This document shows positions 712 to 49,451 of a stretch of DNA of 64,000 bases, piece by piece. The number at the start of each line of letters is the position of its first letter. The stretch's first letter is position 1. Below the pieces are notes generated by a model. The model was not told where the DNA came from and ran no database searches. It saw only the letters and a list, made by a program, of their open reading frames with translations. Made by a program: the position numbers and the translations under genes. Location: the NCBI RefSeq assembly GCF_001957135.1, contig NZ_MPHK01000003.1, positions 1 through 64,000 of the forward strand, given 5' to 3'. The DNA is from Shewanella sp. UCD-KL21. GTDB taxonomy: Bacteria > Pseudomonadota > Gammaproteobacteria > Enterobacterales > Shewanellaceae.

Positions 712-739
712 AGCCCTGCTAGCAATAGCAGGGCTTTTT
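712..739 (+). terminator. rrn/tRNA-Asp intrinsic terminator (copy 1)
   Basis: A perfect 10-bp stem (AGCCCTGCTA, 712-721, with TAGCAGGGCT, 726-735), a GCAA tetraloop and a T-run end the rRNA-tRNA transcript. The same hairpin recurs without change at 908, 1103 and 1297. Confidence 0.93.
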
Positions 740-794
740 CGTATCTGTTATTTAAAGAATGAATAATAGTGACATGGGAAAGTGGGTTGCTAAA

Positions 795-896
795 GCAGCT
801 GTAATTAAGTTGCTTAGACTCTTGATTAGAGATAAACGGCCTGTCACGCCGGGGGGCGCGGGTTCGTCTCTTGATAAGAGTAAGTCCGGTCCGCCA
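795..896 (+). pseudogene. Decayed tRNA-Asp copy 1
   Basis: The anticodon loop CTGTCAC and the 5' T-stem GCGGGTTCG match tRNA-Asp, and the 3' end keeps ...CCGCCA. The 5' acceptor strand is changed to GCAGCTG. A palindromic insertion (CTCTTGATTAGAG) sits after the D-loop and a second one (CTCTTGATAAGAG) sits inside the T-loop. Five bases of the 3' T-stem region are missing. A normal cloverleaf cannot form, so I call it a pseudogene or a tRNA-derived element. Confidence 0.85.
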
Positions 897-907
897 ACAT
901 GACGATA

Positions 908-935
908 AGCCCTGCTAGCAATAGCAGGGCTTTTT
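908..935 (+). terminator. Repeated terminator hairpin (copy 2)
   Basis: Identical in stem, loop and T-run to the terminator at 712-739. It lies just after the first decayed tRNA copy. Confidence 0.88.
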
Positions 936-990
936 CGTATCTGTTATTTAAAGAATGAATAATAGTGACCTGCGAAAGTGGGTTGCTAAA

Positions 991-1091
991 GCATCGGTAA
1001 TTCAGTTACTTAGACTCTTGATTAGAGATAAACGGCCTGTCACGTTGGGGGCGCGGGTTCGTCTCTTGAAAAGAGTAAGTCCGCTCCGCCA
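991..1091 (+). pseudogene. Decayed tRNA-Asp copy 2
   Basis: Same architecture as the copy at 795-896. The acceptor strand is GCATCGG with 3' CCGCTCCGCCA, the anticodon loop CTGTCAC is kept, and both small palindromic insertions are present (the second reads CTCTTGAAAAGAG). The anticodon stem is weakened on its 3' side (CGTTG). Not expected to fold as a functional tRNA. Confidence 0.85.
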
Positions 1092-1102
1092 ACATTAAGA
1101 TA

Positions 1103-1130
1103 AGCCCTGCTAGCAATAGCAGGGCTTTTT
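1103..1130 (+). terminator. Repeated terminator hairpin (copy 3)
   Basis: Exact copy of the hairpin and T-run at 712-739, after the second decayed tRNA copy. Confidence 0.88.
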
Positions 1131-1185
1131 CGTATCTGTTATTTAAAGAATGAATAATAGTGATATGCGAAAGTAGTTTGCTAAA

Positions 1186-1285
1186 GCAGCGGAAATTCAG
1201 TTGCTTAGATACTTGATTAGAGATAAGCGGCCTGTCACGTCGGGGCGCGGGTTCGTCTCTTGATAAGAGTAAGTCCGCTCCGCCA
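1186..1285 (+). pseudogene. Decayed tRNA-Asp copy 3
   Basis: Acceptor 5' strand GCAGCGG, D-arm attcagttgcttaga-like, then an altered first insertion (ACTTGATTAGAG), anticodon loop CTGTCAC, a shortened variable region and the second insertion CTCTTGATAAGAG in the T-loop. The end is CCGCTCCGCCA. Same shared changes as the other copies. Confidence 0.85.
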
Positions 1286-1296
1286 ACATTACGATA

Positions 1297-1324
1297 AGCC
1301 CTGCTAGCAATAGCAGGGCTTTTT
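1297..1324 (+). terminator. Repeated terminator hairpin (copy 4)
   Basis: Fourth exact copy of the hairpin at 712-739. The linker that follows has begun to diverge (gtctctgtaatttaaaaaac). Confidence 0.88.
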
Positions 1325-1379
1325 CGTCTCTGTAATTTAAAAAACGAATAATAGTGACATGGGAAAGTGGGTTGCTAAA

Positions 1380-1400
1380 GCAGCGGTAATTCAGTTGCTT
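1380..1400 (+). pseudogene. Truncated fifth tRNA-Asp-like fragment
   Basis: Only the acceptor strand GCAGCGG and the first D-arm bases (taattcagttgctt) remain. Similarity to the other units stops at about 1400, marking one end of the amplification. Confidence 0.7.
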
Positions 1401-49113: not shown

Positions 49114-49385
49114 TTTTGGTGATTAATGATGAAATATTCAGTCCTTTGGCAGGAATAATCCCATCAGTAAATGAATGTAGGTGTTGGCAACTCAAAACGA
49201 AAAGCGATATGTTATAACTTCAAAATAATGGGTGGCTTTGTTAATTAATTTTTGGTGATTAATGATGAAGTATTTAGTCCTTTGGCTGGAATAATCACAT
49301 CAGTTAATGAATGTAGGTGTTAGCAACTCAAATCGAAAGGCGTTATGTTATAACTTCTAAATAATGGGTGGCTTTTTAATTAACA
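49114..49385 (+). repeat. Direct repeat of ~136 bp, two copies
   Basis: Copy one starts at 49114 and copy two at 49250 (ttttggtgattaatgatgaa in both). They agree along most of their length (agtcctttgg, aatgaatgtaggtgtt, gttataactt, aatgggtggcttt) with scattered differences. No ORF is present. Confidence 0.85.
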
Positions 49386-49451
49386 TTTTAATTAACAATG
49401 GGTGGCTTTTTAATTATTTTAATTAACAATGGGTGGCTTTTTAATTAATTA
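49386..49451 (+). repeat. Short tandem extension of the 136-bp repeat end
   Basis: The last ~25 bp of the unit (atgggtggctttttaatta) appears twice more in tandem, separated by aattaaca-type linkers. This fits slippage or unequal exchange at the end of the larger repeat. Confidence 0.75.

Follow-up and report, generated by a model that had tools for sequence, protein, structure and literature searches.

Altered tRNA-Asp copies arrayed behind an rRNA operon of Shewanella belong to an old and persistent repeat family

Introduction

Bacterial tRNA pseudogenes are usually thought to be quickly lost. Behind an rRNA operon of Shewanella sp. UCD-KL21, an intact tRNA-Asp gene is followed by a tandem series of copies that have all been altered in the same manner, which raises the question whether these copies are the decaying duplicates of a single strain or a lasting element with a use for the cell. 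The window in which the array lies, i.e., the whole stretch of DNA that was analysed, comprises 64,000 nucleotides from the start of one contig. An initial annotation, made from the letters of the window alone, had proposed either dead duplicates or stable tRNA-like RNAs. Here, the array is described in the window and is followed through the same genome, the genus and other families.

Results

Structure of the array

The features of the locus, all on the + strand, are as follows.

1-217, +, 3' end of 23S rRNA (Rfam)
399-514, +, 5S rRNA, upstream of tRNA-Asp (Rfam)
624-700, +, intact tRNA-Asp (GUC) behind 23S and 5S (ARAGORN; Rfam tRNA, 70.5 bits)
701-896, +, unit 1, 196 bp (sequence reading, Tandem Repeats Finder array)
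711-739, +, intrinsic terminator 1 (11 pairs, loop of 4, T tail)
818-837, +, D-arm insert of unit 1 (in unit 2 from 1014; a variant in unit 3 from 1209)
838-848, +, anticodon arm retained as GGCCTGTCACG in unit 1 (1034-1044 in unit 2, 1229-1239 in unit 3)
867-884, +, T-loop insert of unit 1 (units 2 and 3: about 1062-1079 and 1256-1273)
897-1091, +, unit 2, 195 bp (sequence reading, Tandem Repeats Finder array)
907-935, +, intrinsic terminator 2
1092-1285, +, unit 3, 194 bp (sequence reading, Tandem Repeats Finder array)
1102-1130, +, intrinsic terminator 3
1286-1400, +, unit 4, truncated (115 bp), with only the 5' part of its tRNA copy (95% identical to query positions 1-115)
1296-1324, +, intrinsic terminator 4

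Tandem Repeats Finder reports a single array at 688-1400 (3.7 copies, period 195, 92% matches). This and the sequence itself bear out the earlier description of an intact tRNA-Asp followed by three altered copies and a truncated one in units of 194-196 bp; the array had been taken to start at 712, but the first unit begins at 701. Each complete unit consists, in this order, of about 10 nt after the preceding CCA, an 11-pair terminator, a spacer, a leader similar to that of the live tRNA-Asp, and an altered tRNA-Asp with a terminal CCA. Far from the array, the window also holds two tandem copies of a 136-bp unit (49114-49383, 91% matches, Tandem Repeats Finder), followed by 2.6 copies of a 31-bp repeat (49363-49448).

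Alterations of the tRNA-Asp copies

In the three complete units of the window, an insert takes the place of the 3' side of the D-arm, beginning with ACTCTTGATTAGAG in units 1 and 2 and with ATACTTGATTAGAG in unit 3. A second insert, of about 18 nt, lies in the T-loop, where the 3' T-strand has lost about 5 nt. The common insertions and deletion noticed in the initial annotation are thus present in all three units. The D-arm insert and the T-loop insert are alike (CTCTTGATTAGAG vs CTCTTGATAAGAG, by direct reading of the window units). The signature of the wider family described below is a stretch of about 17-21 nt, often starting with (G)ACTCTT, that replaces about 5 nt between the D-arm and the anticodon stem. 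That the acceptor stem had been lost was too strong a statement: its 5' strand is only partially changed, and its 3' strand is retained together with CCA (CCGCTCCGCCA in units 2 and 3, with one change in unit 1).

The window units lack a full set of D, anticodon, T and acceptor helices, their 3' D-strand and 3' T-strand being replaced. Because of the inserts, the window copies are not recognised as tRNA, and they have presumably lost their function in translation: ARAGORN finds the intact gene alone in the window, and Rfam finds no tRNA within 701-1500 even at E up to 1. The minimum-free-energy folds of the units are not cloverleaves, although the plain fold of the intact tRNA is likewise non-standard. 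One D-insert copy of a relative reaches 30.7 bits in the Rfam tRNA search. ARAGORN labels certain D-insert copies of relatives as tRNA-Phe (L030, 1292-1382 and 1482-1572; L088, 1185-1280), and therefore public annotations may contain false tRNA-Phe genes at such places. These calls prompted a reading of the copies as type II tRNAs with the D-insert as a new anticodon arm, which was rejected as inconsistent across inserts. At the old anticodon arm, the four units of another locus (L076, genome G128) read TGACCTGTCA and TAACCTGTTA in turn, so that neighbours in the array differ by a paired change.

Other loci in the same genome

Units of the array occur at three loci of the genome, the window (contig C13), C21 and C6, with nine complete units, all of which carry both inserts. 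At C21, three units, one of them with a single N, are flanked by 23S-5S-tRNA-Asp and a tRNA-Trp; the C6 locus, without a visible tRNA gene, has three complete units and two partial ones that reach the contig end. The units of this genome are confined to tRNA-Asp loci and the C6 contig end and do not show the dispersal of REP-like elements. Among the nine units, variation is 0.009-0.019 in the terminator, the T-insert region and the 3' acceptor strand, 0.05 in the D-insert, and highest (0.12) in the variable loop. The anticodon arm is invariant in this alignment. The anticodon loop CTGTCAC, which had been described as kept, is indeed kept in all nine complete units, but it drifts in relatives (CTGTCTC, CAGTCAC, CTATCAC, CTGTTAC), and part of the spacer is equally invariant; selection on the anticodon loop was rejected because of this invariant spacer and of a bias in the family-wide figures for that region (see below). 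A further, non-rrn locus (contig C1; L022, 4776-6680) contains a pair of intact tRNA-Asp genes and then two altered copies of another form, with a changed 5' half, between which lies an IS110-family transposase gene.

The proposal that one altered copy had been amplified fits this genome, with its nine units at three loci all bearing both inserts, but the alteration itself is far older than the species, as its distribution indicates.

Spread within Shewanella

Two models were applied to 129 Shewanella genomes. With a covariance model of the altered core, on which the intact tRNA-Asp scores 47.1 bits, 43 of the 129 lie above that score, including one (G050) that is there solely through an intact-length gene. 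With a sequence model of the D-insert region, on which the intact gene scores about 30 bits, 55 of the 129, G050 included, score at least 32 bits. The union of the two models gives altered-copy matches in 61 of the 129 genomes, part of the matches having been read; genomes were counted by hand from matches listed down to near the intact-gene score. Four genomes with altered copies are single contigs (G013, G128, G087, G289).

Up to six altered copies stand behind one intact gene (L106), the period of the unit ranges from 131 bp (G093) to about 217 bp (G289), and truncated units are present among relatives as well. Additions specific to certain lineages are a variable-loop hairpin with GCCGAAGGC, the T-loop insert, and larger modules before and inside the D-loop. 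Some units (L080, L098, L099, L105) adjoin another Shewanella repeat with ATCCAT in its hairpin loops, which is also scattered in G093, G072, G095, G090 and G000 in the manner of REP elements; its opposite strand would present AUGGAU in hairpin loops, which we take to resemble CsrA-binding sites.

Spread beyond the genus

When the D-insert model was run on 394 genomes of the order, Shewanella among them, copies scoring higher than the intact gene turned up in 21 genomes that belong to five other genera, as counted by hand: ten of genus g3 (family f2), seven of g12 (f11; one of them, G340, by model match alone), two of g84 (f21), one of g2 (the same family as Shewanella), and one of g38 (f6), the last being a weak case of 34.6 bits. 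The insert can be recognised as the same one across families: GACTCTTTATAAA is found both in Shewanella (L099, L081) and in f2 (L157, L179). When the D-insert pattern was sought in eight genomes, it lay mostly in tRNA-Asp-derived units; there were a few matches elsewhere, and the two of them that were read are not tRNA-like. In a class-wide sample of 274 genomes, the own genome was the only one with the D-insert at E up to 1e-6, and three others match at the intact-gene score. A phage origin was dismissed, one exact D-insert pattern being absent from viral contigs. In f2, a truncated unit (L194, genome G154 of g3) apparently carries, as judged by eye, a hairpin module at the same place in the D-loop as the larger Shewanella module, with a related, yet different, sequence.

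The initial annotation had held that simple decay would follow if no transcript went beyond the first terminator and the unit were conserved in no related strain. The search of related genomes found the unit, and this ground for simple decay falls because the D-arm insert recurs across the genus and other families. Private decay in one genome is ruled out by the altered copies in relatives. The altered tRNA-Asp is an old, persistent repeat family and not one local accident.

Likeness to the live gene

Among the best 150 of 230 matches (alignment A5), D-insert identity is 0.84 within genomes (125 pairs) and 0.51 between genomes (5761 pairs). In the 18 listed genomes where the live gene has GCGGG as its 5' T-strand, all 26 readable units have GCGGG too, a further 12 units being unreadable, and where the live gene has GCGAG (G087, G054, G089, G277), the readable units likewise have GCGAG by eye. 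In 108 units compared with the live gene, the 3' acceptor strand and the 5' T-strand, both outside the search model, are about 0.92-0.93 identical. Identity is about 0.80 for the 5' acceptor strand as against about 0.92 for the 3' acceptor strand. Changes are frequent at the outermost acceptor pairs (first base 0.55 identical) and where the anticodon stem begins (first base 0.31); the region boundaries in this comparison are displaced by one base. Family-wide identity figures from the D-arm to the anticodon arm carry a bias, that region being part of the search model. The likeness of these strands to the live gene would fit recombination that spares the insert. Of the other alignments, A4 is a chosen set of 26, and A2 comprises 17 of 28 cores and omits own units that are nearly identical, four copies whose T-arm is uninterrupted, and copies of relatives, one each, with a similar V-loop insert or an odd D-insert (L037 among them).

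Terminators and transcription

Four terminator-like sites were observed in 500-1700 against 1.2 expected, and all four consist of a GC-rich hairpin followed by a T run in transcript orientation. A single promoter-like site was found in the same interval (2.5 expected); it sits downstream of the array and none is inside it, and therefore the window units presumably depend on read-through from the rrn operon.

With the basal three pairs ignored, the terminators behind intact genes contain 15 G.T and 0 A.C mispairs (38 distinct hairpins), and those behind altered units contain 15 G.T and 3 A.C (48 hairpins, p = 0.0075). Such an excess of G.T over A.C behind altered units is the pattern expected if the transcript is selected. 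The late terminators that are not shared with a first terminator show only 9 G.T to 3 A.C (p = 0.15), and therefore part of the signal may come from the first terminator. The terminators look as if they were selected as RNA, and the late ones probably do so too. The terminator that ends each unit is the best-supported working part of the element and its sole strand-specific mark of use.

In some relatives, an altered copy lies among intact genes. In L171 (g12 of f11), it stands between intact tRNA-Asp genes, the downstream one of which is cut by the locus end and was identified by eye and by model match, and no terminator-like site is found in 890-1652. In L083 (Shewanella, G090), the altered copy is again between two intact genes, and within 900-1500 the only promoter-like site precedes the first intact gene and the only terminator-like site follows the second. 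A similar arrangement inside an apparent tRNA-Asp transcription unit was seen by eye in L041, L168, L176 and L177. Co-transcription of the altered copy with the intact genes is likely in L171 and L083, and serial termination therefore cannot be the general reason for altered copies.

Folding and inserted hairpins

The three window units fold no better than shuffled sequences (z-scores -0.56 to -0.67). For the D-insert, neither a consensus helix nor covariation was found. The hairpin tendency is weak in D-inserts (66 inserts, 55% below the shuffled mean, pooled Z -4.2) and in T-inserts (26 inserts, 65% below, pooled Z -6.1), both Z values being exaggerated by relatedness.

The larger D-loop module of relatives covaries strongly. 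In 21 distinct sequences, its 9-pair and 4-pair helices are paired in 93.4% of cells. Of the paired cells, 36 are doubly changed, where shuffles give 10.9 and none of the 500 comes up to the observed value; the pairing collapses on sliding, and TCC in the loop is invariant. Two of the five measures are unexceptional, namely pairs changed on both sides (6 vs 4.6, reached by 57 of 500 shuffles) and the number of further pair types (16 vs 14.7; 116 of 500). The module shows no RNA-strand bias, with 12 G.T vs 11 A.C, and comparison with the 15:3 of the terminators behind altered units is borderline (Fisher p = 0.05). These ratios (15:0 and 15:3 vs 12:11) are the basis for regarding the terminators as selected RNA, and the module as something that looks maintained as a palindrome. 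A search of six genomes located the module in tRNA-Asp units, with one partial match elsewhere; it was not found in the genome of the window.

The module alignment (A3) includes 17 of 20 distinct rows and four more sequences that were read. Left out were L110 (identical to L062 over the stretch), L052 (which differs from an included row in being one base shorter) and L078, in which the first helix is partly broken (by eye, 10 of 13 pairs over both helices) and whose inclusion would slightly lower the pairing. Three A3 sequences with a shifted bulge add a few A.C and G.T cells.

Discussion

What keeps the altered copies

We give an even chance to the explanation that the array consists of duplicated blocks whose terminators still serve, the tRNA-like part being passive. 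The blocks of leader, tRNA-Asp and intrinsic terminator are evident, and they would have been duplicated in tandem behind the tRNA-Asp of the rrn operon. The copies would then have gained the insert of about 17-21 nt between the D-arm and the anticodon stem and, in this lineage, also the T-loop insert. Changes in copy number and the observed likeness of the units may both stem from unequal recombination, inside the array as well as from one rrn locus to another. The function of the array would most likely be to provide several successive terminations behind a very active rrn operon, and the tRNA-like part would be mainly passive, its likeness being kept through recombination with the live gene. 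Several points do not sit easily with this explanation: the G.T excess is lower (9 to 3) in late terminators not shared with a first one, altered copies stand between intact genes in L171 and L083, the insert appears to have persisted across families for longer than would be expected of passive bacterial DNA, and the larger D-loop hairpin of relatives covaries strongly.

A second explanation is that the units yield a stable tRNA-like RNA (a decoy, sponge or regulator) from rrn read-through or from tRNA operon transcripts, a reading that we consider possible, though a good deal less probable than serving terminators. The inserted hairpins would then be remodelled parts of that RNA. The recurrence of the D-arm insert across genera and families, the covariation of the larger D-loop module (36 vs 10.9) with its invariant TCC loop, and the copies inside an apparent tRNA-Asp transcription unit (L083 and L171; by eye L041, L168, L176 and L177) are all in its favour, as is the precedent of a pseudo-tRNA of Bacillus cereus that may act in a larger regulatory RNA (PMC3399842). 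On the other hand, the D-loop hairpin has no strand bias and its module was not found in the own genome; the D-insert has no consensus helix and a weak hairpin tendency, and the window units fold like shuffles; the anticodon loop drifts in relatives, and there is no Rfam family. A stable tRNA-like RNA thus accounts better for the persistence and for the copies in tRNA operons, without a direct sign in the window, and on balance it is rather unlikely.

Close behind a functional tRNA-like RNA stands the still somewhat less likely view that the copies are pure relics, i.e., roleless dead duplicates whose stock is constantly replenished as the live gene is duplicated anew and as older altered copies convert others. 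The patchy presence (61 of 129 genomes), the variable copy number and unit length, the truncated units, the decayed outer acceptor pairs and the array without a promoter-like site are what such relics would leave, but late terminators keep strand-specific mispairs (15 to 3) and one signature insert persists across families.

That the copies are scars of integrative elements using part of tRNA-Asp as an attachment site is very improbable. In its favour, the acceptor stem is more conserved on its 3' strand than on its 5' strand (about 0.92 vs 0.80), and the non-rrn tRNA-Asp locus of the same genome contains an IS110-family transposase gene, but the units of about 195 bp carry the leader and the 5' part of the tRNA and adjoin directly, and therefore leave no room for an element between attachment repeats. 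An assembly artefact at contig ends near rrn operons is the least credible account, because other species have such arrays in genomes assembled as a single contig and because no uniform sequence is shared by the units, even if the window contig begins inside 23S, C6 ends inside the array and a C21 unit contains one N.

Relation to known systems

In the tyrT operon of E. coli, the 178-bp repeats that encode rtT RNA each carry about 19 nt of the 3' end of tRNA-Tyr. They resemble the present units in being tandem repeats of less than 200 bp downstream of a tRNA gene with tRNA-derived sequence in each; here, by contrast, the repeat contains nearly the whole tRNA-Asp, has inserts in its loops and lies behind rrn operons. 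A search for an Rfam family of the rtT RNA kind gave no match at E up to 1. Photobacterium phosphoreum has a repetitive tRNA cluster with pseudo-tRNAs, which is likewise a series of tandem tRNA genes and defective copies in a marine gammaproteobacterium, but of tRNA-Pro and tRNA-His. REP and Rickettsia palindromic elements are palindromic repeats that are inserted into RNA genes. Short hairpins in the loops of RNA genes are common to these and the present family, and the ATCCAT-type module near some units is dispersed, whereas the D-loop module and the D-insert are mostly confined to tRNA-Asp units in the genomes searched.

A pseudo-tRNA of Bacillus cereus, tRNA-Other, flanks a genomic island, has been studied by deletion, and may act within a larger regulatory RNA (PMC3399842). 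It is comparable as a non-translating tRNA-like copy that is possibly part of a larger RNA, but the abstract describes no tandem array (PMC3399842). The birth of tRNA genes via tandem duplication has also been reported (PMC7661048). The present unit and insert are not described in the portions of PMC3399842 and PMC7661048 drawn on here. The initial statement that no element of such form has been described agrees with the absence of an Rfam family and of any such element in the open-licence literature searched.

Implications

One altered version of tRNA-Asp has endured in several genera and families, beside its live parent in most loci read, and has multiplied behind rRNA operons. Annotation programs can overlook or misname such copies. 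A bolder interpretation, which we consider doubtful, is that a tRNA-Asp-derived RNA family has been carried through several gammaproteobacterial families as a non-translating mimic, which would be made with rRNA and tRNA-Asp transcripts and whose loops would dock new hairpins. Either recombination with the live gene preserves a dead copy for a very long time, or the copy does something.
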